Both the position numbers and the translations under genes were made by a program. From contig CP141147.1 in NCBI GenBank assembly GCA_035235625.1, positions 6,127,001 to 6,191,000 of the forward strand: a DNA stretch of 64,000 nt, given 5' to 3'. The DNA is from Saururus chinensis (taxonomy: Eukaryota; Streptophyta; Magnoliopsida; Piperales; Saururaceae). The notes beneath the pieces are model-generated. The model worked only from the letters and a program-made list of their open reading frames with translations, did no database searches and was not told the DNA's origin. How positions within the stretch are numbered: the stretch's first letter is position 1; each line of letters begins with the position of its first letter. Of the stretch, positions 2,343 through 58,089 are shown piece by piece.

Positions 2343-3440
2343 TTAAAGATTCTTCTTCTCAATATGTAACCTAAGGTTCTCTATGTTTTTCATTTCAACT
2401 ATCATGGTTTTCTTCTGATTGAATTGTGAAGCCTTCTTGGATTTAACATTTGGTATGTGATTTCTAGTCCACATGACTTTGGCTTGAGGTTCTCTATGTT
2501 GTGAGTTGTTTCCTTTCCTCTTCTTAGGTAATTTATTCAAGTTTGAAGCCACATAACTTTCCTTATTTTTAAATTTGTTCATGACACAATGACTAAGGTG
2601 ACTTAGATTGTACTTCATAGCTTTAATTGGCTAATTAAGGAAGGTTTATAATTTTTTGTAATGTATTGTTTCTTGCTTTGGCAAGACTTTAGACGTGGAT
2701 TGCTAGGAGTTTCTTTTGACTTTTGAGTGTAATTAAATTGTGGAACATCCTTCTTAGTGTGCATGAGTTCTTTTTCTTAAACAAACTTATGACACCTTTA
2801 GGATTTAAAGAATTTGTCTCATTAAATTCTAGTCCTCTTTTATCTCTACTTCATTGTCCCAAGTAAAAAATCTTGTTCAATTTTTATTGCCCTAAGGTAA
2901 ATGGTTTCAATTTCTCTTGAGAAGCTTTCAATTCATCACGTAGATTTCAATTCTGTGAAGGCAAGTCTTGTTTGTCTTAACTTTTTCATGTTCTTCATTC
3001 TTTAAGAATCTTTTCTTCCCTACAAGACTTGTTTTATCATATTTGAATGTGTTAATCTTCTCATTGGATGACCTAAGTTTGTATTCTAGAGATCTTGTAA
3101 TTGACCTCTCCTTCTCAAGTTCATCTTTCAATTTTTGAACCTCCTTTTCTAATGATTATTTTTCTTTAGCCAATTGCCAATTGCCAACTTGATTTGAAAA
3201 GTTTCAATTGTCTCCTCATTTATTTGACAATTTTCTCATGTTTCTTAACCATTTTGCCCCATTCAACAACTTTCATAAAAAGTTTTTCATGTTCATTAAG
3301 GAATATTCTCCATTAGATGATCCATGATCAAATTCTAAACTATTTGATTATTTAGATCCATCAATTTCAGAATCATTCATCTCTAGACTAGCATATAAAA
3401 CAATCTCATTGAAAGTAAGATCATCATAATCAATAGTGTA
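2343..3440 (-). pseudogene. Copia gag/pol remnant (coiled-coil region)
   Basis: Minus-strand fragments read as charged coiled-coil protein (for example KDELEKERSITRSLEYKL at about 2,928-3,131) and as a lysine-rich stretch with KKRKGNNSQHREPQAKV (2,343-2,618). Such wording is familiar from gag and pre-protease regions of plant copia polyproteins. It is a broken fossil with several breaks, and no complete domain is left. It could belong to another LTR family; the superfamily call is moderate. Confidence 0.45.
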
Positions 3441-3829
3441 GATAATAGCATGATGGGACAATCAAACACAAAACAATTAAGAGCAATTTGAGAGAACTCA
3501 AGGAAATATTAAGCAAACACAAGCAATTGAAGGAAGAATAATTTTTGGAGAGGGCCATAACAAGTAGCAAATCAAGCAAGAATGATATCAATAAAAAACT
3601 CCTTAGCTACTAGTTGTTAGTTTTATACCCTTCACTTTGTGGAGGGTTGCCACATTGTCTCTAGTTCAAATACCTTACAAGGCAATGAACTACAAGATGT
3701 GACCTCTAAGTGCAAGAAATTAACAACAAAAACTAGCGCAAAATATAAACCATTCAACCATACAAATCAATCAAGTAGTTTTTAATGTGGAAACCCAAAC
3801 TATAAAATTGTGTAGCTGATCCTTAGGTT

Positions 3830-6800
3830 GAACTCAATTACCATGCCTAGAGACACTGACCTGACTTTGGAGTCGAGAATCCCAAGCGTGACAGATTCAG
3901 CCCAATTCCAAAGAATAAGACCGGCTAAGTGCACAACAAACAATTGCTATTGAGGAAAATACTAACTTCATATGCATTATAAATTCAACTACCAATACTA
4001 AATTAGTCTTATTACATTATTAAATAAAAACCCTACTTAAAAAGTTCTCCTTATGATGAAATAAATCCAAAATAATTGTCTTAGTCTTCCCAAGATGATT
4101 CCCATTGTTCACTCTGTGACCACATTGGTATTGGCTCCTAAGTCCTCCGAATACGCCATCACCTCTAAGTATAGTAATAGGTAGGGAAAAAATCTAGCAA
4201 AAACAACAAACACAGGGGTGAGCATCACATAGTAAGGAAACCATCATCACATGCATTTATGAATGCTCATGAACAATATGAGAATATACACACCATTCAA
4301 CAATGGATAACTCAATACTATTTCCATGAAATATTAACCACCATGGAACTTCATTCAATTCAATTACCATTTCTATGTAATAATAACCACAATTGAACCC
4401 CATTTAGTTAAATTATTATTTTCACTAATTATGTGCCAATAGAACCCATTGTGTCAACTTTGCAATCACAATGCTTTGCTGAGTCAACTTTGCAAGCTCA
4501 ACGAAAAAAACGTGGGAGGGATTTGGGGTCTTGCACCCTAGGTTGGACCATGTCATGCACCTAATGTGCCCCTTGACCCGAACAGGGTTAGGACAAATGA
4601 CAAGGGTGTGATGAGATGAGTTCTAACCTAAACCAGGGCTATATCGAAGTACACATCTGTCACTTTGTGCAAAAGCAATTACCGGAAGATAAAAGAAATT
4701 AAATAAAACTATTAAGCATTCTTACACTTACATATAAGTTCACAATCACAAGGGAGCCTCAAGCCTTTAAAAAGCAATAAATAAGGTTATGCTATCAAAA
4801 AGAAAGGCTTTCCCACAACACAATCAATTACATCATATATTAACTACTAACTATCCCAAAATAGGAGAACTATCCCCACTTCGCATCCTTTTAATCTTCA
4901 TCGTGCATGCAAAACAAACCATCCTGAGTACCTACATGCTACAACTACATAGGAGGATACTAGAGGGATACCCAAAACAAAAGAAAGTAGAGGGGTGAGC
5001 ATAGCCCAGTAAGGGTTCGAAAACATAGAGCTCACATTAACACCATAAAACATAATCTCAAGATGGATAACATAAACCTTATGCAACATTGGTGTTAAGA
5101 TTACAAGAGCATGCCAAATCCCTTATACATAAGAGTTGTGCAAATATGTCAATCATGCATCATAATCCATACATAAAACCTATGTAAATGTCTCAATAGA
5201 GTAACTAATCCACACACAAAACTTGTGCAATTAAGTGTCATAATTCATACACAACTGTATCATTATCCATATACAAAACATGTTTAGTAAACATAATAGT
5301 CCACAAAGTAAATGATGGAATAATCTTGGTACCTGAAGATATTAAATACCTATTTACCCGGTATTTCTAAGCCAAAAATACCAAAAGTAGACTCTTGTAA
5401 ACTAGCAATTCCCTTGGTTAGCCAATGCACATCAACAAACCAGTATGAAGCTCACTTAAGAAGTCTCATTTAGTGTCCTCATTATAGAATTCCAGTCTTC
5501 TCGGCCCAGGGAGAATAGACTTAACCTTTCAGTATGAAAAACTCTTCCTTTTCAGACAGAAAACTACATCCTTTTGGACAAAAACTGATTCATTCAAATC
5601 CCCAATATAGCTAATTTAGAAACCATAGAATATCATGGCTAATCACAATTAATCAAAATTTAACAAACCATTTACATGTTGTATGCGGCATGGGTCAAAT
5701 GTGAATAATACCAATTACATATAATCATAAGTATTCATACCAATAAACAACCCCATCATGCATAAGACATGGATCATACGTAGATAATATAGTCATGTAA
5801 GCCTAAGTGCGTGTAATCATAAGTAGTCATGTTCATAAATGATTTAGAGTGCATGAAGCATGGTTCATACATGAATAACATCACATGTGTGAAATCATTT
5901 ATGATAATTCTTTACTAGTTACATGTAAGACACATGGAGGGACCCTAAAAATTTGGCTTAAAAATAAGCATAAAAGTAGAAATTCTCTTGGGCAATCGAT
6001 TGGACTCAAGGGCGATTGATCGGGTACACAGAAGTGGCAAACAATTGTTTTTGCGATCAATCGGGCCTTCCTGGCGATTGATTTATTGGTTGATCAACTG
6101 GTCTTTGTAAAAATGAAGACAATAGCTTCACCAATCTATCGCCCTTCATAAGCGATCGACCAGTCGTGCTTAGAAACACGAAAAATAGTATTTTCTTTGG
6201 AAAAACCAGTCCGATCTTCAATCAAAACATCATAAATCTTTAAATAAACATCATCTTGGCTTTAGACATATTATGACCAACATAACTCATGCATATTCAC
6301 ATCAATACATCATCAAAACACATATTCAAGAAGATCTAAGCTCATACATCCAACATGCTTCAAGAATATGATTCAACATACACAATCCATGGTTTTAATT
6401 TAAGGGAAACTTCACCAAAGAAAAACCCGTTACCTCAAATCAGTAGGTAGTTCCTTCAATCTCTTCCCAAACTCAAAGAATCCTTAACCAATAAATTAAG
6501 TTACATTAGCCTTAAGCAAAAACAACACCTTTAAACCAAATAGAGGCTCAAAATCACTAATAGAAAGACAAATCAAATATTCCCTTGTGCCCAAACATGA
6601 AACACGAGAGTAGAGAGAAGAAACAAGGATATAAGCTTCTAAAACATGGGTAAAAGATGGAGTTTTGACGAGTAGAAGACATGGAATCAAATGCAAGCAA
6701 GAAGAACATGGGATTCAAGGAAGAAACATAAGAAATCTTGTAGTAATATTGCTTGGCTTACCTTGGATGAAGCTAGAACACATGCTTTCCCTTCTAGAGA

Positions 6801-17058: not shown

Positions 17059-17890
17059 TTGGTATTGGAGCCTAAGAATCATTGTGGTAGAGCAATAGTT
17101 ATGATTAGTCACACAAATAGTGAAAAGGACAATTTGCTTGATCGATTTAAGAAAATTGCTCTAGAATTCTCAGGAGAGGATTGGTCGGAAGCAACCGAGA
17201 AATGGATATTTGAGGTCGAAAGAATTTTGAAGGCAATGAAAGTTCTAGAAAATAGCAAAGTGGACGTAGCCACTTTTGCGATGACAGGAGAAGCAGAGAA
17301 AGAAATTCCATGACAAGGAGAACATCAAGTGGGAAGAGTTCAAAGAAGTATTATATAGTAAATATTTTCCACATCATGTTCAGGAAAAGAAAGAATAAGA
17401 ATTCTCATTCCTTCAGCAAGGAAACATGACAGTATTTCAATATGAAAATAAGTTTGTGTAGCTACAACACTTTTCTCCTGAATTGTGTCCTACAGAGTTA
17501 AAGAAAGCTCAAAAATTTGTCAAAAGTCTGAATAATGGAATCCGTAGTAGAATAGTAGGATTTCAACCTACTACTCTCGCTAGAGTTGTGGAATTGTCCT
17601 CTTTGACGAAACAAGAATATCATGAGTTTCTGGAAGAAAGAAAGGACTGTGGGCAAAGCAGAAATTCTAAAACTGAAAATCAGAAGAGGAAAGTGACATT
17701 CCCAACCCAGAATACAAATTGAAAATTTTAGAGAACCTCTGGACTGCCAATCCAGACTCAAGGGGAAAAGAAAGTAGAGAAATGTTCTAAATGTAACCGA
17801 TTTCATCCACTAGAAATTTGTTATATCTCTAAAAAGCGATGCTTTGAGTGCGGGGATGTTGGGCATAAGGTTAAGGAATGCCCTAAGAAG
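17059..17890 (+). pseudogene. gag remnant of element G
   Basis: The fragments show a typical retrotransposon gag segment (EDWSEATEKWIFEVERILKA near 17,180-17,240) and a CCHC zinc knuckle of the form CFECGDVGHKVKEC near 17,841-17,882. It is broken in several places. In the family, gag forms the virus-like particle and the knuckle binds RNA. Confidence 0.75.
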
Positions 17891-17984
17891 AAAAATCAAG
17901 AAGAAATGAAGACGAAGCAGAAACCTAATGCTGAGGGGCGGGTCTATGCTGTCATTGCAGAGGAGGCTCAAATATCAATAGGAG

Positions 17985-19100
17985 TTGCACAAGGTACACT
18001 TCTAATTTTAGATAAGATTGCTAAAGTTTTAATAAATCCAGGATCAATACATTCTATTATCTCTTGTAATATTGCTTTAAGTACTGGTTATCTGGTTATG
18101 GAATTAGGATATAGTTTAGAAGTGTCAAATCCTATGGGAAATACTTTTATAGCCCAGGAATTTCTCCAAGATATGTCTATGTCATTAGAAAACCAAGAAT
18201 GAAAGGTTAATCTTATACCCTTTGAGTATGATAGACTTTGATGTCATATTAGAAATAGATTGGTTAGTTGAAAATGAGGTTTTAGTAGATTGTAAGAGGA
18301 AACAAGTTATATTCCATAAACAAGGAGAGAAAACTTTTACTTTTCATGGAAATCAAGATTCTTTAGGAGTATGTATCATTTCCGCCGTGAAGGCACGATA
18401 ATTGATCTTCAAGGGATGTCAAGTAATCTTCCTAGTGTGATTTCAGAGGAATCTATGCCTGCCAAACTAAGAGATATTGAAGTAGTAGAAGACTTTGAAG
18501 ATGTGTTTCCATATAAACTCCTTGGGGTACCACCTAAAAGAGAGATAGATTTTAATATTGATCTGGTACTTGGAACAGAACCTATCTCTAAGTCACCCTA
18601 TCATATAGCTCCTGTAGAGTTAAAAGAATTAAAAAGTCAATTGCAGGAATTATTCGATAAGGGATTTAGCAGGCCCAGTGTTTCACCTTAGGGAGCTCCG
18701 ATTCTCTTTCTAAGAAAAAAAGATGGATCCTTAAGATTATGTATAGAATATAGGATGCTTAAGTCTGTAACTATAAAAAATAAGTATCCTTTACCCAGGA
18801 TCAATGTTTGATCAGCTGCAAGAAGCAAAAGTATTCTCAAAGATAGATTTAAGATCAGGGTACCATCAACTAAGAATACAGGATGAAGATATTTCGAAGA
18901 CAACTTTTCATATCCAATATGGCCATTATGAATTTCTAGTAATGCCATTCGGATTAATGAATGCTCCTACAACATTCATGGATTTGATAAATTTAGTTTT
19001 TCAAACTTTCTTGGACAAATTTGTAATTGTCTTTTTTGATGAGATATTGGTCTACTCTCCAAATCTAGAAGAACATCGAGACCACTTATAGATACTTCTT
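17985..19100 (+). pseudogene. Protease and reverse transcriptase remnants of element G
   Basis: An aspartic-protease-like segment lies near 18,030-18,060. Reverse transcriptase segments follow at about 18,590-19,090, with [15 protein letters not shown] and [13 protein letters not shown], both hallmark Ty3/gypsy phrases. It is a fossil with multiple breaks. Confidence 0.8.
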
Positions 19101-35447: not shown

Positions 35448-37667
35448 TTAAAGCATCTCACCCTTCGTAGGAGAAATAGGGAGTAGTTCAAAAACTTCTT
35501 GGTATCCCTTACTTGACTCTAGGATTAGAGACACAATTGAAGCATCCGGTGAAAGCTTCCTCTTCTGCATTTCATGAAGAAGTTTAATTACTATAGTGGT
35601 TTCATCTTTCTTGATGGATGCACGCAGAAGTATATTAAAAGTAATAATATTTGGCTCACAGCCTTTCACTTGCATTGCCTCAAATGAGTCATATGCCTCT
35701 TCACACATTCCTTCTTTGCATAATCCACTTATGTATGCATTATAGGTCACTACATTGGGTGACAATCCTCTTGTTGAAATTTCATTCAAAACCTCCTTAG
35801 CCATTTTGATATTTCCACAGTTGCAACAGCCACTTATAATTGTATTAAAAGATATAATATCCAACTCTATGCCATAATCACTGGCTGTATGAAGAATATT
35901 CAATGCCTCATTCATATATTGGGCCTTACATAAGCCATCCAGAAGTATATTATAAGTACATAAATCAGGACTTAAGCCATGCCCTTGCATTTTACTGAAA
36001 AATTCCATTGCGGCCTTGGTCTTCATTTCTTTCCAAAGTCTACCAAATAAAGTATTGCATGTGATGATTGTCGGCCTAATTCCTTTACTCAACATTTCCC
36101 TAAACATCAACATTGCCTCGTCCATCCTCTGGCATCTACAGTACCCATTAATTAGCACACTGTAGCTAATAGCATCAGGACTTAACGCATTACCAACCAT
36201 TGATTTGAAGAGAATTTCAGCTTCATCAATGTTATTCAGTAGAACGAATCCATTCATCAAAGCACTATAAGTAATGGTATCAGGTTTATGACCTCTCTCT
36301 ATCATTATACCCAAAAAAGCACATGCATTTTGCATTTTTCCTTCTTTGCATAGAGCATCAATCAATGTGGTATATGTTACAACATCAGGTTGAACACCTA
36401 ATTCCTCCATTTCACGGAACATTCTCACAGCCTCTTCCCACTTACCAACAGAGCAAAGGCCACGTACTAATGCAGTGTAAGCACAAACATCAGGTTTGAT
36501 ACTCTGGTAGGTGAGCTCAGCAAATAATTGCAGCGCTTTGTCTATTAATCCATCTTCACACAAACAATCAATTAAGGTAGTGTATGTAATAGTATCTGGT
36601 TTGCAATTATCATCATAATCAGCCATTTTGCGAAGCAACTGCAGTGCTGTTTGGGCTTGACCTGTTCGACATAGCTCATTAATGAGCATACTGAAAGTTA
36701 CAACAGGAGGCCTTTGACCCCTTTGAATCATCACTTCTAGCAAACGACATGCGTTTATCAGTTTTCCTTCTTTGCATAAAGCATCTATTAAGGTATTGAA
36801 TGTGACGATGTCTGGTTTAATTCCCTTGCACTCCATTTCATTGAAGAGGCGCATCGCGTCTTCCCACTTCCCACAAGGACAATAACCCCAAATTAAAGAA
36901 CTATATGTAAAGACATCAGCACTCACCTTCCTGTTGGTCATTTCTGAAAGCAGCTCCATAGCTTGATCCATGGCTCCATCCTTGCACAGAGCATGGATGA
37001 TTGTATTGTACGTGACAGTGTCGGGTTGAATGCTTCCACCGCCAGCATCACTAGTTTCATGAAGTAATGAAACTGCAGCGCCTACTCGACCAGTTCGACA
37101 CAGACCTTTGATGAGTGTATTGAAAGTCACCACATCTCGTGGGCAATCATTCTGCACCAGTCTACTGAAAAACTCGACCGCCCCATCAATTGTTTCCTCC
37201 TTCCTACACAAGCCCCGCAACAATGTGGTATAAGTGACCACGTTGGGAGAGCAGCCCAGCCTAAGCATTTTACCGAACACAGAGAAGGCACAAGAAGCAC
37301 AGTCTAAGTGGGCATAAGCGTTGAGCAACATGGTGAAGGCGTGGACATCGAGCGGCACCCCGCAGGCTCCCATTTCGTCGCAGAGGGAAACGACAGTGAG
37401 ATGGTCCTTGCCGGAGGCGACTTTAGCAAGAGTGCGGCTGAAACTGGAGATGGGGGGCCGTGGAAGGGAGAAAAGCATGCGCCGGAAGTGGTCGACGGCG
37501 TTATCGAGTCCCGCTGTGATGGGTGGAGAAGGGTCTTGGCCATTGGTCCCTCTGGTCGGGAGGGGATTCGGTTGTCGCTTCCTTCCTCTTCTCCCCGTTC
37601 TGCCAACATACAAGACAGCGTCTTTGGTGGCGGGTTTCAAGTGTCCGGCCCTGTTGCTTCCGCTCAT
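35448..37667 (-). CDS. P-class pentatricopeptide repeat protein, restorer-of-fertility-like (RFL)
   Basis: An intact 739-residue, intronless frame. About 18 P-type PPR motifs of about 35 residues run from residue 106 to the C-terminus, each with a signature such as PDVVTYTTLIDALCKEGK; motif junctions fall near residues 141, 176, 214, 249, 284, 319, 356, 391, 426, 461, 496, 531, 566, 601, 636, 671 and 706. No E, DYW or other catalytic tail is present. P-class PPR proteins bind specific organellar RNAs and affect their processing, stability or translation; the RFL subgroup typically acts in mitochondria and includes cytoplasmic male-sterility restorers. The first 50 residues are rich in Arg/Lys and poor in acids, compatible with an organellar transit peptide, but this cannot be confirmed by eye. 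The ATG at 37,667 is the first in frame after a stop nine codons upstream. The 5' third is much more GC-rich than the rest. Subgroup placement is from repeat wording and is less certain than the PPR call. Confidence 0.93.
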   Translation of the reverse strand: MSGSNRAGHLKPATKDAVLYVGRTGRRGRKRQPNPLPTRGTNGQDPSPPITAGLDNAVDHFRRMLFSLPRPPISSFSRTLAKVASGKDHLTVVSLCDEMGACGVPLDVHAFTMLLNAYAHLDCASCAFSVFGKMLRLGCSPNVVTYTTLLRGLCRKEETIDGAVEFFSRLVQNDCPRDVVTFNTLIKGLCRTGRVGAAVSLLHETSDAGGGSIQPDTVTYNTIIHALCKDGAMDQAMELLSEMTNRKVSADVFTYSSLIWGYCPCGKWEDAMRLFNEMECKGIKPDIVTFNTLIDALCKEGKLINACRLLEVMIQRGQRPPVVTFSMLINELCRTGQAQTALQLLRKMADYDDNCKPDTITYTTLIDCLCEDGLIDKALQLFAELTYQSIKPDVCAYTALVRGLCSVGKWEEAVRMFREMEELGVQPDVVTYTTLIDALCKEGKMQNACAFLGIMIERGHKPDTITYSALMNGFVLLNNIDEAEILFKSMVGNALSPDAISYSVLINGYCRCQRMDEAMLMFREMLSKGIRPTIITCNTLFGRLWKEMKTKAAMEFFSKMQGHGLSPDLCTYNILLDGLCKAQYMNEALNILHTASDYGIELDIISFNTIISGCCNCGNIKMAKEVLNEISTRGLSPNVVTYNAYISGLCKEGMCEEAYDSFEAMQVKGCEPNIITFNILLRASIKKDETTIVIKLLHEMQKRKLSPDASIVSLILESSKGYQEVFELLPISPTKGEML

Positions 37668-37735
37668 GGCCGGACCTCCAACAGTACTAAGCCGTCACAT
37701 GGACGGGCAGATTCCATGTTGCTCTTCTTTTTCAT
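37664..37735 (-). promoter_or_regulatory. Upstream ORF ending on the PPR start codon
   Basis: A 23-codon frame starts at ATG 37,735 (peptide MKKKSNMESARP...) and its TGA overlaps the PPR ATG in the arrangement ATGA. If the transcript begins upstream, PPR translation would need leaky scanning or termination-reinitiation. Alternatively transcription starts between the two ATGs. The arrangement is seen directly; any regulatory effect is inference. Confidence 0.45.
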
Positions 37736-39858: not shown

Positions 39859-40911
39859 GTACTCCCATCGCGAGAGGCTTTAATAAAATGGGCCAAAGAA
39901 ATTTGTATGAGGTATGGCACGATGCTTATAATCTTAAAATAGGATGCCCAAAAACAGAGACCATGTGTTACTCTAGCTTGTGAAAGGGCGGGCCACTACA
40001 AAAAAAGTATTATTCAAAAATCCAAGTCGGATATTCATAATTGTAGAGAAACAACCACAAAGAAATGTGGATGCCCATTCAAGTTACAAGCAAGGGAAAT
40101 GTATATTGACCGTGGTGTCAAGTGGAAATTGAAAGTAATTTGTAGTAGTCACAATCACCCCCGTAGGCAATTTGGAGAATGGTACGCATATGTTGGTCAT
40201 CTGAAAGAGGAAGCATTTTTATGCTCCGTGCTCACTATGAATCGGGCATAAGGAATGCCTAAGAGGCATTAATTTTCAAGATCGATGGCGCACACAGTAG
40301 CGCACGTTAGTGTAAGTATTAGTCACGCTAATGTACGCTACCGTGTGCGCCGTCGATCTTGAAAATCAACACCTCCCAGACGTTCCTTACGCTTGGCTCA
40401 CAGTGAACGTAGAGCATAAAAAATGCTTCCTCTGAAAGAAGGAGAGATAGAAGTTACACAAAATTTGTCAAAGATAGGCCTGACACCTCGGCAGATATTG
40501 CTTTCTTTGAAGGAAGCAAACCACACAAACTATACAACTATGAAAACAAATTACAATGTTTGTATTCTATTGTCTTTAACTCAAAGAGTGGGTAGAACTG
40601 TGTTGCAAGAGTTGATGAAACAGATTGAGAAGTCAGGGTACGTGTGCTACCATAAGAAGGATGAGGACACTGACACATTAACAAGTATATTCTTTGCTCA
40701 TCCACTATCGGCTCAGCTAGCAAATTTGTTCCAACATGTGTTTGTTATGGATTGCACTTATAAAACCAACAGATATGGACTCCTAGTTCTATCCATAATT
40801 GGAATAATTGGCATAAGGAGTAGAGGTAAAGGCACTTCTTATAACTTGATTAGTTTGGAGTTAGTAGTGAATACCTACAAGAAGTTTTCACATGATTTTC
40901 AAAGAATCTAA
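39859..40911 (+). pseudogene. Mutator-like transposase fragment with FAR1-type zinc-binding N-terminus
   Basis: From 39,859 the frame reads a FAR1/MULE DNA-binding module: REALIKWAKEICMRYG, then TLACERAGHYKKS, KKCGCPFKL and VICSSHNHP, giving the expected Cys-Cys-His-His pattern. There is one in-frame stop (TAG) after MLIILK. The frame runs to 40,208, is split by a 222-bp MITE, and resumes at 40,440: removing the MITE and one copy of its target restores the frame exactly (HLKE followed by GEIEV). The second part (to 40,911) reads the segment before the catalytic core and the first core strand, FVMDCTYKTNRYG, whose Asp is the presumed first DDE residue. Similarity is lost soon after; the rest of the catalytic domain and the SWIM finger are missing. 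A dead remnant of a DNA transposon. Confidence 0.8.
40209..40430. mobile_element. Foldback Mutator-type MITE with perfect 9-bp target duplication
   Basis: The 222-bp unit starts GGAAGCATTTTTATGCTC and ends as its inverse GAGCATAAAAAATGCTTCC. The arms extend nearly to the centre (AAGATCGATGGCGCACAC against GTGTGCGCCGTCGATCTT), so it can fold into one long hairpin. It is flanked by perfect TCTGAAAGA duplications (40,200-40,208 and 40,431-40,439). A 9-bp duplication and long arms fit a Mutator-derived MITE. It lies inside a Mutator-like transposase remnant. Confidence 0.9.
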
Positions 40912-48800: not shown

Positions 48801-51800
48801 ATCGATGGGATCACCTCATGAGGTGATTCAATGATTCCGGCTCGAAACGGCTTGGAATCAACTTCCGGGCGGAATTTTTAATTCAACCCACCTTCTACAC
48901 ACACAAACATGATTCCGAGCCGAAATTGGGATGGAATCAACGGAATCTTCCAGGAATTCTGTACACAAACAGCCCCTAAGAGAGAATGGGGAGAACTTTA
49001 GATGAAGCAGAGGAATTAGATGAAGCAGAGGAAAGACACACGAGAGCCCTAAAAACACTAATTCTATAAATCAAAATCAGATCCATTCTATTTATAGAGT
49101 CAGGCTTAAGGCCTTTGTGCCTTACAATTACTGAACACTAAAATAGCAAAAGTAGGAAATTAAACTAAACATAGGATTTCATCAAACCAAGGAATAGTAA
49201 TCCTAATAAAACTACAATAAGCTAATTAAAGGAAGTCCTGATATGGAGAATGTGGAGTGCAAGTTCTCTGACAGAGCACAAATAACATAGTACTGTCTGA
49301 TGCATCAAAATTTGCAGTTTCAGAATAGTACACTACCTACTGATCAACAAAAAGGAATACTACACTACCATCAGTGACATGTACCAACCTCACCCTGGTA
49401 TGTTTCATATAGTTCAACATCACCTTCACATGTTTCTAGACATAATCACAAATCACGAAAATGGACTAAGAAGTTGGTCGTCAGAAAACCTCTATTTTTA
49501 AATACCTAAATATAAAAAACTAAAAATTAATTAAAGAATAAATTCGGCTTTAGCTCTGTCAAGCTCACCAAAGTAACAAACTTGCCTTACACCATGCAGC
49601 CAACCGGGGTAACCACTAGATGCAAAACATCCAACACCATCATCACCAAACAACAAGAATCAACTTTAGATTCCTTGACGCTCCCTGGTCTCATAGGAGA
49701 TAATATGCCAATAGAAGCGAGCCTTTTCAGTAAATCCTCAATAAGGAACACCAGACGACAGTGCAAATAAGTCCAAGTGCAATGCATAAAAAACGGATAA
49801 GATCAACCAAACCTTAGTAAATAGAAAGAACCAATTCCCTGTTCCGACTTAAGTCCTCATAAAGTGCTTATTTCAAACATATAACAGTGATTGCTAATTA
49901 CTCAACACCTCCAGTAACATTGGTCTTTTTTTTCAAAAATTTAACCATTTTGAACAGGCACTGAGCTATATTATCGAAAAATACTGTTTGATGGGCCCAC
50001 TTCTCAGTAAATAACTTCCAAAATTTTTTGTCTCATTTTTTTTCTCCTTATGATAAGTATTTATTAATTTCCCATACCTGATGTGAAAACAATATTCAAG
50101 CATATCCTGTGTTAAATTGTTTCATACAGCTTCAATTTGGTTTATCCTCTTGTTCAAACATTATTTTGAAGAACGTAGGTCACATTACATAGGCATCTCA
50201 AACACCTATAATAGCTAAATTAATTACTCTTCTAGCAATAGTAACTCTGAAACAGGAGTTTCAATGATCTATTCATTTTTCACGTCACCGCTTCTCATCA
50301 CTATATGAGCAAACAAAAGAATATAAATAAATTTGAAAAACATTGCATGCTTGCAACGAGGAAAAATCTAGCCAGCACTGTAGCTATCAGTGCTGGCAGT
50401 GAGCTGAAGCCCCTGGCCAGGAGCTGCGCCTAGCCATGATCTGACAGTGATGACTAGGGGGCTTCAGCTCTCTAGCCAGCGCAGAGAGCTACAGAACTGG
50501 CTAGACATCCTCTTGCAGCATACATGACAAGAAATTAATTATGCTAGTCATATTTTTTAAAGAGGAATGCATATCATCAAGGATGATAGCAAAAATTTTC
50601 CAGATAATTGGTAATAAGTTCAGTATCATAAACGTACTACTTCTACTTCTACATAAAATAATCGTTTTTTTATCATGAGAATTTTTGTGCAAACTCTAGA
50701 CTGCAGTACCTGTAGTTCTTAACCTCACAAGACAAATACCGTTACAATTTTGTACAAAAGTAGCACAGTAATGAGATAGTCTTTAAATGAAAACAATACT
50801 CAAAAGAACTACTTTTTGTATGAAATGCCAAATGATAAAAAAAAATTATACTCCCTCTGTCCTATATTAATAGCTCCATTTGATTTTTAAAAATAAATGT
50901 TATGACCCATTTAGAAGGCCCATTAGGAATAGTTTACTTTATTAATAGTTAAGCTAAGTGATTAGGGAGTTATTTGTAATTTCTATTTAATTAGTTTTAA
51001 TGGGCTTTTAGGCTAATGTTTAGGTCTGTTAAGAATTCTATTTAATGTAAGGGCTAGCCCTAATTTTAAGAAGCGAATGAATGAATTAGAAGTCTTCTAG
51101 TTTGATTATCCTTCTTCCCATCGTCTAACCTAATCTATCATCTTGATTCCTTCCCTTTCATCTAAACTCTTCTCTCAAATCCTAATTCTGTCTGACCTAA
51201 TCTATCATCTTGATTCCTTCCCTTTCGTCTAAACTCTTCTCTCAAATCCTAATTCCTTCTCCTCTTGATCTAGCCTTTGCTATCTTTCCCTCTCATCTCT
51301 ACAGCTCTAATATTCACCCATAGATTTAACGATCTACAACAATAAACTAAAATTAATTCATTTTGAAAACCCAAATGAAGCTATTAATATAGTGCGGAGA
51401 GAGTGTAGTTTTTTTTTGCATCATTATACCAAAAAAAATACCGTTTGTACATGCACTACAGAAGAATTATCAATTAATAGTACATATTTAACTACTTAAA
51501 AATAATATAAGAAGACAAAAGGAAGACAGAGAACAGAAAAGGCTAGCACACCAGAACATCATAGAACCTTTTCTTGATGACTATGGAAAAATGAAACCCA
51601 ACATCAAAAGCTAGGTATCGACAGAGAAGGGAAAAATCCAGATCAGTGAAACCCTAGACGAAGGAAGCGTCGAGCATCATTTGACTCATGGAATAAAGAC
51701 AAACTAAGGCAAGCAAATCGGGTATAGAGTGGAAAACCATGGAGACAATGCTTACGGGGCGGAACTGGGAGGCGGTGGTATTGACGGTGAGGATGGAGAT

Positions 51801-52103
51801 CTCGTCGACCTTGGTACGGAAGACGGCGATCTGGGCGGTGCCGGTGAGGTTGAGGCGGCGATCGCAGGGGGAGAGCTGGACGCCCTGGCCGCCGCCGCTG
51901 GAGGAGAAGAAGTCTTCGCGGCGGGCGAAGGCGAGGGCGAAGGTGAAGCCGTCGGAGCGCTCCACCTTGGCGTCAGAGCAGGGGCTGTAGACGGGGTTCG
52001 TGTCGTCCGCCGCCTCCGCCGACGGGATCATCGCCGAAAGAATCGCGGCGAAGGCGCATAGGAGGAGGAGGAAGAAGGGCATAAAGGGGATTTCGGCCGC
52101 CAT
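45802..52103 (-). CDS. Secreted plant protein, Expp1-like, three exons
   Basis: Exons: 51,756-52,103 (116 codons), 46,195-46,302 (36 codons) and 45,802-46,113 (103 codons plus stop), all phase 0 with GT-AG introns; the product is 255 residues. The N-terminus has a clear signal peptide (FFLLLLCAFAAILSAMI) ending near AEAADD. The mature part includes NPVYSPCSDAKVERSDGFTF, an extracellular-type set of cysteines in exon 3 (SCASCSG, then CLNKADC, SSC, DCS), and the conserved ending WYEVSNLRQYSLY. This matches, from memory, plant proteins annotated Expp1 (function unknown), expected in the secretory pathway or at the surface. The first ATG in frame is at 52,103; the upstream in-frame GTG at 52,118 is not a likely start. 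Exon 1 is very GC-rich. Intron 1 is 5,453 bp and full of insertions, intron 2 is 81 bp. No disabling change is seen. Confidence 0.85.
47305..49287 (-). mobile_element. Short non-autonomous LTR retroelement in intron 1
   Basis: Two homologous direct repeats: 47,305-47,642 (3' LTR, about 340 bp) and 48,394-49,287 (5' LTR, about 370 bp once a MITE is removed). On the minus strand each starts TGTTAT and ends GATACAACA. The interior is about 750 bp and lacks gag-pol; a purine tract (TTGAGGGAAAGGGA on the minus strand) precedes the 3' LTR. Flanks TAGTT and TAGTA match at four of five bases. Family unknown, probably copia-like by LTR termini. Old and non-coding. Confidence 0.75.
48457..48976. mobile_element. 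Tourist-like (PIF/Harbinger) MITE inside the LTR
   Basis: A 520-bp unit bounded by GGGGCTGTTTGGGTG and its inverse CACAAACAGCCCC, with TAA duplications on both sides (48,454-48,456 and 48,977-48,979). A 3-bp TAA target and G-rich inverted ends are the PIF/Harbinger signature. It splits the 5' LTR of the host element, so it is the younger insertion. Confidence 0.85.
49288..50344. other. Intron 1 sequence without recognisable element
   Basis: AT-rich; the small open frames at 49,582-49,787 on both strands have no family features. Confidence 0.4.
50345..50523. repeat. Long imperfect hairpin in intron 1
   Basis: The two arms (about 50,345-50,415 and 50,453-50,523) pair over roughly 70 bases with scattered mismatches and small bulges. 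Shared blocks are CTAGCCAG, CTGTAGCT, GAGCTGAAGCCCC and TGCAA. The loop is about 35-40 bases. No clear target duplication was found. It could be a small foldback MITE or the source of a hairpin small RNA. Confidence 0.7.
50851..51403. mobile_element. Stowaway-like MITE split by a solo LTR
   Basis: Ends CTCCCTCTGTCCTATATTAA and, inverted, CTCTCTCCGCACTATATTAA; the arms continue through AGCTCCATTTG / AGCTTCATTTG. It is preceded by TA. The CTCCCTC terminus and TA target point to Tc1/mariner-related Stowaway elements. The original element is only about 104 bp; the rest is the inserted LTR. Confidence 0.75.
50898..51341 (+). mobile_element. Short solo LTR (TRIM-like) inside the Stowaway MITE
   Basis: A 444-bp unit starting TGTTATGACCC and ending CTACAACA with a perfect ATAAA duplication at both sides (50,893-50,897 and 51,342-51,346). 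It contains a 67-bp tandem duplication (starts 51,125 and 51,192) and shares GGGCTTTTAGGC and GTAAGGGCTA with the element at 58,690, so both probably belong to one family. Confidence 0.8.
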
Positions 52104-52446
52104 CGTCGTCTTCGCCACCGACTCGACCGCAGAGCAGCTTCGCCGAACGGGGTTCTCTGTTACATGTTACCCGTGAAAGAGAAATCAGGAGGAGGGCATT
52201 CTCGGTATTTAACGTGATGTTATAAAACCGGCAACACCGGGCAACGCGGTGTGGCGGGTCCCGTGTAAAGAGCACCATCGGATTGAAATCCGATGGCATA
52301 TTAATAATTTTATTTTATTCAGGTTGAGTATTTAGAAAAAATATATTACAAAACTTATTTTTCTGCCTTTAGAAGTGGTTTTACCCTTTAATAAAAAATA
52401 TGATTTTATTAAATTTAACTATTAATATAGTGCAAAAAAAAGTATA
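52104..52446 (-). promoter_or_regulatory. Probable promoter and 5' UTR of the Expp1-like gene
   Basis: The 340 bp between the start codon and the MULE edge fall from very GC-rich to AT-rich. A TATA-like TTTTATAAC lies on the minus strand near 52,211-52,219, about 110 bp from the ATG. The core promoter therefore appears to lie outside the transposon, but distal promoter elements, if any, were displaced by 5.6 kb. The last nine bases (52,438-52,446) are the MULE target duplication. Confidence 0.45.
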
Positions 52447-52806
52447 GGAAAAATTATTTAAATAATATTAAAAAAAATAATTACTATTTTAAACTACTTT
52501 GGGAAATATTTTCAAAAGTGGTGTTCGTTTTTCCACGCAGGCGTCAACCAAGCGGATGCTTCTGCGTAGGTTTTTTTTTTTAGTTAATTTCGTCCTTTAG
52601 AAGGATGAAATCAACTTATTTCGTTCTTCTAAAGGACGAAACCGAGTCAAGTTTTAAAACACTTGACCCGATTTCATCCTTTAGAATGACCAAATCAGCT
52701 TAAGTCAATTTTGTTCTTCTAAAGGACGAAATTACCGTACTTAGCCGAATTTGTTGGTTCGCCCTGGTAAACAAAGTCGATTTCGTCAATTTAAAAGACA
52801 AAATCA
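52447..52806. repeat. Left terminal inverted repeat of the MULE
   Basis: It matches the inverse of 57,785-58,080 from the outer end through CTTAGCCGAATT and CGCCCTGGTAAACAAAG. It contains several copies of the self-complementary phrase CGTCCTTTAGAAGGATGAAA and its variants. Confidence 0.9.
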
Positions 52807-53049
52807 GCTTAACACTAAAGGAAAAAATCAAGTTATTTTTTTTTTAAATATCTATTTTAAACTAAATTTAACCCCTGTCCCTGTTCATGCATTCCACACG
52901 TTCCATTCCACAAGTTCCATTTCATTTCACACATTTCATGCATATTGACATCATTAAATAAAAACAAACATCATTATAAATGTTTATCAAATATATTACA
53001 CACAAGGGGAGAACATAAAACAATGCAAATATCACAATCTCCTACATCC

Positions 53050-55331
53050 TCGACCTTGACTTCGGCCTCAACGGTGCTCTACGATCTCCTCCTCATGATC
53101 TGCCAGTTCCGGCTCTGGCTGTGGCTCCAGCTCGGGATGTGGCTCTACCTCTGGCTCTGGCTCTGGCTCCGGCTAGGGATGTGGCTCTAGCTCTAGCTCT
53201 GGCTCCGGCTCTGCATAAGTAATAGATGGTTCAACACGAGCTAGCCGATGTCGTCTATAATATAAAATCTGCTCTGCCTGAGCTACATGTGCAGTGACTC
53301 CAAATGATGAACATGGAGGAGAGCTATGTGCTACTGATGACAATGGAATATCATGGAATGAAGAGTGCATCAGCGGTGTCTGAGCGGCCTCGTGGACAGG
53401 ATAATCTCTAGAGACATCCGTAATCACCGACTAAAGTAGTGGCAGCTATGAATGACATCATTATGCTCCCTAATCACTGACTGACATGCTGCTAATAAGT
53501 CCTCACTCGAAGTGTAGGTCTTAATTGCGTCAGTCAAATGCGTATGAGTATGTCGAGCTAAACGAAGCTATAAAAAAAAGTTAGATAAATAATTAATAAG
53601 AAATAAGAAAATAACATATGCCTTAATTAACAAAGTTATACTTACCAAAGCTGCCTCAGATGCTCCCCTAGGCTGATATGTCATCTCCTCTATATCGTCA
53701 CGGGGCAAAATATATCGTCGTGTAATCGGTAAATACCACTGTATATATGCGCTACGCACATCTCGCAATGTCGTAGCTATCTCCCTTTGATAATAGTGGC
53801 TCTCCTATCCTCCCATCGAGTGATAAATGACGCATGATGTAATGTCCAGTAGGTAATATGGCGGCCCTGTAGAGTGATGCGATCGATATACTCAACAGGA
53901 GATGGTGGGACCCCTTGCTCCAAGTTAAACTGGAGCATTACCCAATCTGGCACATACATCTCTACTATCTTGTAACATATTAATGGAGTTCGAGATAGCC
54001 ACACGTCTCGACCGTCAGTACATAGAGGAGGTAAGGCAACCAATACTTCCAGTGAGTACGGCTGCCAAATAACCTATACAATATATAAAGATATTTTAGC
54101 TTAAATAACAACAATATGTTTTATAAACACTACAAGAAAAGTTCAACACATAACTAAAATTACCTGATATAGCCGCTGGTGGTCTAACTCCGCTATGTAC
54201 AATCGAAGGACTCCTTGTGGATTTTTTGTTCTCTTTTTCCGAACATTCCACCTTAAGGAGTTATATTTAAAAAATGAGTTCAACAAATGTATATAAAACG
54301 ATGCTAAAATTTTCAAGTGTTAAACAAAAATAAAGCCTACCTCGCGCCTAATGGAGCACCATCGGCTAAGCGACCCATCTTAGCACTTGGTCGTCCGACG
54401 TGTAAATGCTCCCACGACCATAGCTATGTTATAAAATATGAACATATTAAATAAAATTAAAGAATTATACGTAAAAAAATATATTTAAAGTTATAAATTC
54501 ATTTACCTGAAAAAGGGTCAGGCAGCCTACAATCCCCGAGGTCATGGCCTGACATGTTTTCCCTAACTATCGGTATAAAAATGCTAGAGTGGCACTGCCC
54601 CATGAATATGCACCCACCTTGTCAAAATCCTCAAGGAGGGAGAGATAGGCCACATGTATATGGCTACTCATGGTATCCGTAAATATTGTCGCTCCAAGTA
54701 GATGTAAAAGATAGGCTCGTGCATGCTGCTCAATATCTATCTCCGTAGCATCGGTTGGGAGCTCTCGAAACTCCTGTAAGAGCCATCGAAGGCTCACTCG
54801 ACTACCACGCATGAATGTAGCAGGAGGAGGTCTACCAAGGAGTCTAACTAAAATATCACCATGAGCTCCTCCTGTCATGCCCGTCACCGCATGACCATCG
54901 ATGCGAAGTCCTAATAGAATTGCCACATCCATGAGAGTGATGGACATCTCTCCATAGGGCAAATGGAACGTCTGCGTCTCCCTCCTCCATCTCTCAACAA
55001 GAGTTGTCAATAAAGGCCGATCGAGACAAACATATCTAAGATGAATGAAATGCCCAAATCCCGCTCGCTCAATATAGGGCAGCACACGATCATCCACTGG
55101 CCAATGGCAGAGATACATAAAGTGTTCGGTGCACTCAAGGCACCTAGGGGCCAATAATAAATTTAAAATTTATAACCCATCATACTATATCGGCTAAAAA
55201 AATAAATTTTTTTTTAAAAAGAGTTATCATACCTCTCCTCTCCAAATAGCTGATAACCTATGTGTCTCCTGCTGTGAAAGTACAGAATCATCAATCGGGC
55301 CTGGCCCGTAAGATCGATCTGCATGATCCAT
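53050..55331 (-). pseudogene. Plant mobile domain (PMD, MAIN-like) gene carried by the MULE
   Basis: Exon 1 (55,233-55,331) reads MDHADRSYGPGPIDDSVLSQ and ends at GT. Exon 2 (about 55,143-54,507) holds the PMD core: HFMYLCHWPVDDRVLPYIER, then GEMSITLMDVAILLGLRIDG. Exon 3 (54,343-54,424) reads LWSWEHLHVGRPSAKMGRLA. Exon 4 (about 54,164-54,250) reads WNVRKKRTKNPQGVLRLYIA. Exon 5 (below about 54,073) reads VWLSRTPLICYKIVEMYVP; the tail is Glu-Pro rich. PMD proteins include host MAIN/MAIL1, nuclear factors in transposon silencing and genome stability, and transposon-borne relatives in MULEs and gypsy elements, often annotated as phosphatase 7 long form homologues. Damage seen: an in-frame TAG at 54,567-54,569, a frame change near 53,785-53,800, and a TAG in the Glu-Pro repeat at 53,173; the exon 1-2 junction also does not keep frame as read. 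Exon limits are tentative. Confidence 0.85.
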
Positions 55332-55428
55332 ATGAGCTACGGATGAAGAATTAAGATCACATCATTATTCATCAGGAACATATGCTCATACCTAAAATAG
55401 AGAGTAAATAAATAGATTAATTATATCT

Positions 55429-57196
55429 TTACCAATCAACAGGAGGATTTTGACATGATTTACTATTGTGCCCACTTTGTTTACACCTCCCGCATTTATA
55501 TCCCCCTCTACCATCTCTCTCCATAGTTCTACGGTCCATTGTATTCCTAATGTGAACTGACCGTGGGCGACGGGGTTGCCTTGTTGCTATTGGAGGATAT
55601 AACACAAAAGGTATATCCCTCTCCCAATATTCCCGACCACGAGGGGAAGAAAATTCTACCGCGTACACATTTTTATAAGTGGATGATGTGTAAAACAGTG
55701 ATGCTTGTATTGGCTCCCGCCACTTTGCCCACACGGAGATAAGGTGAGTGCAAGGATAACCATAAACCTGAGGGATGTTGCATGTACAAGTATGCATTCT
55801 AGCATTTACCATAACCTTCCAACCACGAATAGACGTCACTTCGTACTGACCGCTGTTAATCTGATTAACTATATACTCCCCAATTTTTCTTATTTGTTTT
55901 CTCATTATCGCTTCCACTTTAGGAGTATACGGGGTGGCCATAGCAGATGCGGCAGATGATCGTTTAACGAAAAATTTTATGACCCGATAAAAAATAGCTG
56001 ACACTAAAACCTGCATGGGTAATCCTCGTGCCCCCTTCAAGACGCTATTTAAACTTTCGACCATATTTGTAGTCGTCATGCCAAACGTCCTAAAACCCCC
56101 GTGCGCAAGGGACCACTGGGCAGGATGCAATTCTCCTCCTAAGAGGAGATGTTTTGCCCTAGGACTCTCCTGACCAATTAAGTCCATTTTAGCATCAAAC
56201 TTTTCTACTGTAAGTGCACAAGCTGCTGCCCCAATCAAGTCTGTCAATGTATCATTTTTTAACTCCTTAAAATTTGCTTTTATATGACAGATGCAATAAT
56301 GATGGCGGTACATTGGCTCTGGAAGAACCTCAAGCATGGCCTTTTGGAGCCCCTTATGTCGATCTGAAATAATGACGATGTCTGTCATGCCCATTAGTAC
56401 ATGATCCTTTAGTTCCATTAAAAACCATTTCCAATTGTCTCCATCTTCCTTCCTGACAAGCCCGAATGCTAGAGGAAATAACCCATTGTTTCCATCTATA
56501 GCCGTTGCAGCCATAAGAGCACCAGGATATCTGTCATACAAGTGAGTAGCATCAACACCAATCATAGGGAGGCAATGTCGAAACCCCGCTATAGACGGCC
56601 CAAATGCCCAAAACAATCGTGTAAATTTCCTACACATGCCACCATCTGCACGACGTACTTCATCATCCTCTAAGTGGTAGTAGGTGTCAGGATTCGCTTC
56701 TTGCACCGCCCTTAGGTACATTGGCAACAATTTGTATGATTCTACCCAATCCCCATAAATAGCCTTGATCGCCATATTCCTTGCTGCCCATGCTTTCTTA
56801 TAAGATATGTCAACATGATACTTCTCCTTCATTCTTTGAATAATATCCCTTGGTGTGAGAGTTAATTCGGCTTGGATAGCAGGCATTATGACCTTCAAAA
56901 TAAAGGAGGCACTGCACTGCCTATGATCTGTGCTAAGCTGGGCATTCCAACATGTGTGATCACCTTTACGTCTTCAATTTAAAGTACCTTCCACCCCTTT
57001 TTATGGACCTATGAACTCTCTAAGGGCAAGTACTATCAATGCACTTCACTGTATACTCCGACAAATTTGTTCGTACAACCTTGTATTCGACATAATTTTG
57101 AATAGAAAACTCCTGCAAGGTTGTAACGAACGCTTCTTTATTCTCAAAGATGCGGCCAACATATAACCTGTCTTCGTTTTGTTGGTCCATATCCAT
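55429..57196 (-). pseudogene. mudrA-like: MURA-type MULE transposase, N-terminal region disrupted
   Basis: The long frame 55,429-56,898 gives 489 residues. Visible motifs (residues counted in that frame): first catalytic Asp in MIGVDATHLYDRY (D116), second in IISDRHKGL (D179), the C-x2-H pair in HYCICHIKANF (C202, H205), a candidate catalytic Glu in MVESLNSVLK (E281), a SWIM zinc finger CTC...CTH (C371, C373, C383, H385) and a zinc knuckle CGRCKQSGHNSKSC (469-482). The first codon of this frame is TTG, so translation must start upstream: an ATG at 57,196 opens MDMDQQNEDRLYVGRIFENK and reads the MuDR DNA-binding domain as far as KCIDSTCP, where TAG stands in place of the usual Trp codon; a 1-base frame change follows near the GDHTCWN segment. 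The catalytic half is thus whole but the DNA-binding half is not. Role: binds the terminal repeats and catalyses transposition. Confidence 0.92.
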
Positions 57197-57784
57197 GGAA
57201 GAATTAACTGCCGCATCTATCTCTTAAGGACTATATCTTGAAGGCGACCCTGTAATGCTACGAATGTCATGTTTTAATAATTATGTCCATAACTCGTTAC
57301 TTCTGCGAAATATCCTAAAAAAAATAACTCCTAAACATACATTCAATACCATAACAATTGAATCTTTAAACACACAAAATTCCTAAGATAAACTAACAAA
57401 ATTTCCTAACAATTGAAACTTTAAGCACACAAAATCATTTTTAAAGACTAACATAACACAAGAAAATTACTAAAATCTAACAATTAAATCATTAAGGCAT
57501 ACATTACAGAACATTACAAAATTCTCTAACTAGATTAAACATATCAAATTCTTATATTTAAACTAGGGCAAAACAAACATACCTAAATCAGCTTGGTGGC
57601 GGGGCAGCAATCAAAACAGAAATCAATCAAGGATGAGCGGATGAAATCAATGTTGGGGCAGACTCAATCAAGGCTGGGCGGATTCAATTAAGGCAAGGTG
57701 GACGAGATCGCAGCGGAGCAAACAAAATCGTCACGACGGAGCAGATGGTCGGGACGGAGAAAACGCGGAATAGAAGGTAGGTGG

Positions 57785-58080
57785 GTTCTGTTAAAACGGA
57801 CAATTTCATCCTTTAAACGGATGAAATCGGCTTTGTTTACCAGGGCGAACAAGTGAATTCGGCTAAGTATGGTGATTTCGTCCTTTAGAAGGATGAAATC
57901 AGCTTAAACCTGATTTCATCATTCTAAAGGACAAAATCAACTAAAAAAATTAAAAAAAGCCACGCAGGCGTCAGCTGCTTAACTGGCGCCTGCGTGGAAA
58001 AAACGAACACCACTTTGGGAAATATTTCCCAAAGTGGTTTAAAATGGTAATTTTTTTAATATTATTTAAATAATTTTCAC
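57785..58080. repeat. Right terminal inverted repeat of the MULE
   Basis: The inverse of the left terminal repeat. It contains a perfect small palindrome (CCACGCAGGCG ... CGCCTGCGTGG, 57,960-57,999) and copies of CGTCCTTTAGAAGGATGAAA. Confidence 0.9.
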
Positions 58081-58089
58081 AAAAGTATA

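Follow-up and report, generated by a model that had tools for sequence, protein, structure and literature searches.

The 64-kb window of Saururus chinensis contig CP141147.1 analysed here (64,000 nucleotides, numbered from the first letter) contains a Mutator-like element (MULE) of 5,634 bp at 52447-58080, in which a transposase gene and a gene encoding a plant mobile domain (PMD) protein both lie on the minus strand. The element is bounded by an exact 9-bp target-site duplication (TSD), AAAAGTATA, the left copy of which (52438-52446) adjoins base 52447 and the right copy of which (58081-58089) adjoins the element end at 58080; these are exactly the boundaries and perfect duplications given in an initial annotation of this DNA. 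The terminal repeats of about 300 bp reported there were recovered as inverted ends of ~82% identity. The left terminal inverted repeat (TIR; 52447-52795, plus strand), which is the 3′ end of the element in the sense of transcription, aligns with the reverse complement of the right TIR (57812-58080, minus strand), the 5′ end in the same sense, over two blocks, one of 206 and one of 127 columns. The TIRs hold internal repeated units of ~32 bases each, and their length in the element family is about 270-350 bp. Long TIRs are also known from the maize element MuDR.

No second copy of the element was found within the 64-kb window. Three full-length sister copies from elsewhere in the genome (L065, L066 and L067) have best self-inverted matches of 84-89%, and two of these are flanked by exact 9-bp duplications of their own, namely TATAAAATA in L065 (element of ~6.8 kb) and TTCAATTTT in L067 (~6.9 kb). 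No exact 9-bp duplication was found for L066, the ends of which stayed undefined. Since L065 and L067 show the same type of end together with their own duplications, the TIR ends of the window element are not a product of chance. The element thus combines the 9-bp TSD, the MULE DDE transposase domain and the TIRs that characterise the Mutator superfamily.

The transposase is named MURA by analogy with maize, and the exon bounds of both genes are predicted from splice signals. An open part of exon 2 encoding 514 aa (55429-56973, minus strand) carries the MULE domain (Pfam PF10551, E 6.4e-18; PF00872 also above cut-off) and a SWIM-like zinc finger that, at 19.0 bits, falls just below the Pfam cut-off of 19.6. 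Upstream of this, tblastn with the L066 transposase identified a 5′ remnant of exon 2 (56954-57223, minus strand) with one in-frame TAG and a frameshift relative to the downstream frame, and the remaining stretch up to the right TIR (57224-57811, minus strand) is a non-coding remnant 5′ of the transposase. The junction at ~57223/57224 marks an internal deletion, and at this point two sister loci, L039 and L040, are ~1.7 kb and ~2.2 kb longer, respectively, between the flanking matches. A transposase exon 1 is present in all three full-length sisters, L065 having a shortened version whose end is altered, and their exon-2 frame runs to 711-712 codons. The same tblastn search found no match to the sisters’ exon 1 in the window element, whose exon 2 has also lost 113 residues from the start of a frame that counts 711. 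In L066, the transposase matches PF10551, PF00872 and the MuDR DNA-binding domain DBD_Tnp_Mut (PF03108), with no Pfam match in its exon 1 (2291-2779, a 163-aa frame). The L066 transposase frame (3009-5141) is fully open, but reads K at the E of an NMAESLNS-like motif, and Y in place of an H in the SWIM-like finger, E and H being the residues found in L065, L067, L041 and the window copy. This E is a putative catalytic residue. Given both changes, an open frame in L066 need not mean an active enzyme.

The PMD gene begins at its own ATG (55331), separated from the transposase by a spacer with intron-like GT...AG ends (55332-55428, minus strand). The spacer measures 97 bp with the transposase stop codon included, so that the same-strand gene pair of the initial annotation stands while its distance of 98 bp is corrected by one base. 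Six PMD exons are predicted, all on the minus strand. Exon 1 (55233-55331) was placed by alignment and reading frames, and its ATG is kept in all 34 copies that cover it. Exon 2 (54507-55151) encodes the core of the plant mobile domain (PF10536) and has a TAG where L066 encodes E. Exons 3 (54341-54423) and 4 (54164-54251) were delimited by comparison with L066, with splice signals read by eye. Exon 5 (53646-54073) includes a second Pfam PMD match, and its match to L066 exon 5 is split over two frames; the last exon (53032-53567, approximate) is matched by the L066 exon in two frames with stop codons (tblastn). The two PF10536 matches, at 54567-55169 (E 2.3e-41, 142.6 bits) and 53777-54073 (E 1e-13, 51.3 bits), exceed the curated cut-off of 34.9 bits. 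A comparison of exon 2 with solved structures gave no credible match (best E 0.56), and structure prediction of this exon from 11 copies reached a mean predicted local distance difference test (pLDDT) score of 41.6. A 6-bp tandem repeat, GGCTCT, occupies 53111-53213 in the stretch coding for the PE-rich tail of the PMD protein, and the length of this tail varies among sisters.

Taken together, the window element has an internal deletion and is a dead member of a high-copy MULE family. In addition to the truncation, TAG and frameshift of its transposase, which deprive it of the intact transposase gene that an autonomous element has, the PMD gene is damaged by the TAG in exon 2, a frameshift in exon 5, and stops and a frameshift in the last exon. 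The initial annotation had presented it as a nearly complete element with a clean two-gene architecture, a description that we withdraw because exon 1 and the start of exon 2 of the transposase are missing and stops or frameshifts interrupt both genes.

To place this copy in its family, we searched the genome (516 Mb, 11 contigs) with several parts of the element. The resulting copy counts are lower bounds, as only the best candidates were scored, a limit by which strongly diverged relatives lacking PMD would escape notice. The left 314 bases as query gave 39 sisters of 77-84% identity among 40 scored of 2520 first-look candidates, the transposase gave 83 sisters of 86-92% identity among 84 scored of 4672, and the 150 scored of 2096 candidates for PMD exon 2 all had E < 1e-104 and 80-100% identity, the window copy included. 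PMD accompanies the transposase at nearly all of its 83 listed sister places: exon 2 is found within 2.5 kb at 78 of them, and some part of the gene beside the transposase at 81. This tally comprises 33 places with PMD exon 2 within 2.5 kb according to the exon-2 search list, 18 of 20 places fetched from the remaining 50 (exon 2 directly downstream), ten further places with PMD within 2.5 kb according to searches with PF10536 or a MAIN-type probe, and 17 of the last 20 places fetched, some with truncated or frameshifted exons; in L063 exon 2 lies 3.6 kb on according to the exon-2 search list, and L045 and L072 retain the 5′ part of PMD only. Wherever a fetched stretch had exon 2, it lay on the transposase strand (35/35), and both genes were present in all six of the first-fetched sister loci and in three further full-length stretches. 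The TIRs co-occur with the gene as well: a listed PMD exon is found within 7 kb at 16 of the 39 sister TIR places, where chance would predict 0.16.

The distribution of PMD bears on the possibility that it is a one-off capture, that is, a passenger fragment of this particular copy. Such an origin would not be unusual for a MULE, as host gene fragments are often captured by these elements according to a review (PMC13317346). It is nevertheless refuted here by the sister copies that carry PMD (81/83), together with between-group ratios of nonsynonymous to synonymous divergence (dN/dS) below 0.5, and we regard it as virtually untenable. The window element also differs from a Pack-MULE in having a transposase, albeit a broken one, and a PMD gene found family-wide.

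The alignments behind these ratios draw on 52 pooled sequences and contain 29 (transposase), 50 (PMD exon 2) and 34 (PMD exon 5) of them. The pool leaves out the window copy (L009), the TIR loci L001-L008, and seven loci that represent the same places as longer ones (L012, L018, L021, L023, L052, L061 and L062). Copies covering too little of a piece were removed by script, and many of those kept are partial; the covered part is free of stops and frameshifting gaps in 4/29 transposase, 11/50 PMD exon 2 and 12/34 PMD exon 5 sequences. For each gene, copies were assigned to one of two groups according to whether they resembled L066 or the window copy, and the groups hence differ between genes (17 and 12 sequences for the transposase, 19 and 31 for PMD exon 2, 5 and 29 for PMD exon 5). 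Between groups, dN/dS (mean dN over mean dS, with codon bootstrap on 20 sampled, non-independent pairs) was 0.404 for the transposase (0.30-0.46), 0.198 for PMD exon 2 (0.15-0.31) and 0.406 for PMD exon 5 (0.27-0.64). We read this as purifying selection acting on both proteins in lineages that kept moving, probably diluted by the neutral decay of dead copies. Presence of PMD among sister copies and purifying selection on it had been proposed as checks in the initial annotation, and the figures above do not refute its reading.

A gene that serves mainly as a trigger of silencing, with PMD transcripts feeding the small-RNA defence of the host, is an improbable explanation for this pattern. Its inspiration comes from tea (Camellia sinensis var. 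assamica), where 175 PHAS loci at PMD genes are given in PMC10673657, a case that may differ from the present one in both species and PMD type. A triggering role would moreover leave the purifying selection on the PMD protein unexplained.

Based on the frames and their conservation, the plan of the family is a transposase gene of two predicted exons followed ~97 bp downstream by a PMD gene of about six predicted exons with its own ATG. The spacer between them may be spliced, as its GT directly follows the last transposase codons in 33/33 copies and its AG directly precedes the PMD ATG in 32/34. This intron-like spacer, and the fusions of MULE transposases with PMD-C described for grasses and Amborella by Ikeda et al. 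(2017, PMC5418596), raise the question of whether both genes here encode a single protein spliced across the spacer. Removal of the GT...AG spacer creates a TGA at the junction, however, and a splice from transposase exon 1, which is in phase 2, would not be in frame with the PMD acceptor, which needs phase 1. With an alternative intron of 41 bases, a frame does stay open across the region of PMD exon 1 in certain window-type copies (L041, for example), but PMD is not read in this frame, which is closed by a stop in the window copy and in L065-L067. In unspliced form, the transposase stop is kept in 31/33 copies, alongside the invariant PMD ATG. The reading frames, phases, and conserved stop and ATG therefore do not agree with a simple fusion of the kind in Ikeda et al. 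(2017), and the predicted gene structures exclude a transposase-PMD fusion by simple splicing, leaving two proteins that would stay separate; we consider a fusion protein very improbable.

The two genes do not appear to share a single history. In a first comparison by diagnostic sites between the two reference groups, 23 copies other than the references spanned both genes, and 14 of these had 69-77% L066-type letters in the transposase stretch (bases 800-1600 of the reference stretch) and 0-8% in PMD. Because diagnostic sites alone are insufficient to demonstrate recombination, a further lineage was added and trees were inferred from the 29 copies common to both alignments. In the tree of the early transposase part, L010 and L022 join the window-type copies (ultrafast bootstrap 100) and the L040-type is left with the L066-type, whereas the PMD exon 2 tree placed the L040-type with the window-type (support 94, against the customary 95) and left L010 and L022 with the L066-type. 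Divergence between L040 and L066 rises at the spacer, from 0.10 to 0.27. The conflict between the transposase and PMD trees points to recombination between element subfamilies as its probable source.

Neither the occurrence of PMD in MULEs of angiosperms nor the proposal of a counter-silencing role, as made in the initial annotation, is new to the literature. Ikeda et al. (2017, PMC5418596) credit Babu et al. (2006) with the first PMD in a rice MULE and propose a counter-silencing role for MULE-borne PMDs, a proposal that recurs for transposon PMDs in a 2021 review (PMC8616336). Dupeyron et al. (2019, PMC6446971) report that most members of MULE-Monocots, MDR and MUDRAVI2 carry PMD, which is sometimes or often antisense, that it is antisense in most of MUDR, and also in MuDR-9_OS, and that half of VANDAL have PMD and/or a domain of unknown function (DUF). 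Our family shares with those groups a MULE transposase with SWIM or CCHC, 9-bp TSDs and TIRs of tens to hundreds of bp. It shares with the Ikeda fusions the combination of MULE transposase and PMD, but has instead two open frames, a conserved stop and a separate ATG. New here, and not met with in the passages of Dupeyron et al. consulted, are the family-wide PMD count in one genome, the estimate of selection on PMD and the conflicting trees, to which the separate-frame architecture is added; a search of open-licence literature, by titles and the starts of abstracts, found no report of dN/dS for a MULE-borne PMD.

Two other systems offer comparison. Maize MuDR is likewise a two-gene MULE (mudrA and mudrB), with the difference that the second gene here encodes a PMD protein and shares the strand of the transposase. 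VANDAL MULEs resemble our family in coupling a MULE with an extra gene, and their VANC proteins are a reported anti-silencing system; such a role is shown for VANDAL and only proposed here. VANDALs have no TIRs or short degenerate ones (46-174 bp in some members of the group), unlike this family (~270-350 bp) and the window element within it.

Considering these results together, we think it probable that this high-copy MULE family, with its two genes in the same direction, encodes in PMD an accessory protein that the element needs and benefits from, and that may, as the leading of its candidate roles, regulate silencing in trans. Gene expression and silencing are the processes in which the characterised PMD proteins MAIN and MAIL1 function, according to Ikeda et al. 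(2017, PMC5418596), PMC8616336 and Nicolau (2020). These host proteins share the plant mobile domain with the protein studied here, which is transposon-borne and multicopy. In this reading, PMD would act in trans on the element’s own silencing, perhaps by imitating host proteins of the MAIN/MAIL1 type or by competing with them. The listed PMD places are 44-50% identical to a MAIN-type probe, which is a rough figure.

A direct contribution to the transposition reaction, without a silencing role, is a possibility that ranks close behind the silencing role. Dupeyron et al. (2019, PMC6446971) describe mudrB of maize MuDR as apparently required for integration and mutB of yeast Mutyl as DNA-binding, and a PMD protein that travels with the transposase, under between-group purifying selection of similar or greater strength, could be an aid of that kind. 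The functions of MAIN and MAIL1 in gene expression and silencing argue against it.

Several observations weigh against a selected accessory protein with a silencing role. Within groups, dN/dS is 0.47 and 0.55 for the transposase, 0.55 and 0.50 for PMD exon 2, and 0.83 and 0.56 for PMD exon 5; the recent pair L066/L067 gives 0.69, 1.42 and 0.94 for these three pieces, and a one-ratio codon model 0.53, 0.57 and 0.66. The within-group and L066/L067 ratios fit neutral decay after insertion, so that selection is visible only between groups. None of the full-length sisters is clean in every piece: PMD exon 2 is interrupted by a stop in L065, PMD exon 5 by a stop and frameshifting gaps in L067, and L066 carries amino-acid changes at conserved transposase positions. 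Two of the 83 sister transposase places, L079 and L085, lack PMD in the 801 bases read. Lastly, no host MAIN-type PMD gene was recognised for comparison: among the best candidates scored (117 with PF10536, 111 and 150 with two MAIN-type probes), viewed as lists and not singly, none stood out, identity to the probes being at most 50%, a result that fits an absent, an intron-split or a lower-ranked gene alike.

The silencing role can be extended, more speculatively, to a PMD gene that forms a counter-silencing module which selection maintains and elements exchange, its product being a separate protein translated from the downstream ATG and its lineages being swapped between transposase lineages by recombination between subfamilies; as a whole this is unlikely. 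Translation of PMD would perhaps proceed by reinitiation on a shared transcript, on which removal of the spacer by splicing would leave 4 bases between the stop of the transposase and the ATG of PMD. The exchange of PMD lineages could be likened to the anti-silencing systems of VANDALs, which coevolve with their elements.

Although the window copy itself is dead, it serves as an entry point to a family that offers at least 150 scored PMD exons, PMD near-universally beside the listed transposases, some open frames, measurable selection and apparent recombinants. These features open the question of PMD function to methylation, expression and transgenic work.

Several other features were noted in the window. 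An open frame on the minus strand at 51654-52166, with an ATG at 52103, has a signal-peptide-like start and no Pfam match. The MULE lies 344 bp upstream of this ATG, in what may be the 5′ part of a host gene; MULEs often insert in such regions. A possible MULE/FAR1-like transposase fragment at 40420-40911 (plus strand) shows a weak match to the RNaseH-like domain of ZSWIM1-3, below the Pfam cut-off. A retroelement fragment with a zinc knuckle and an RVP_2 protease, which we take to be of the Ty3/gypsy type, is located at 17732-18202 (plus strand), and an uninterrupted frame at 35448-37694 (minus strand) encodes a 748-aa PPR protein with 16 PPR_2 stretches.

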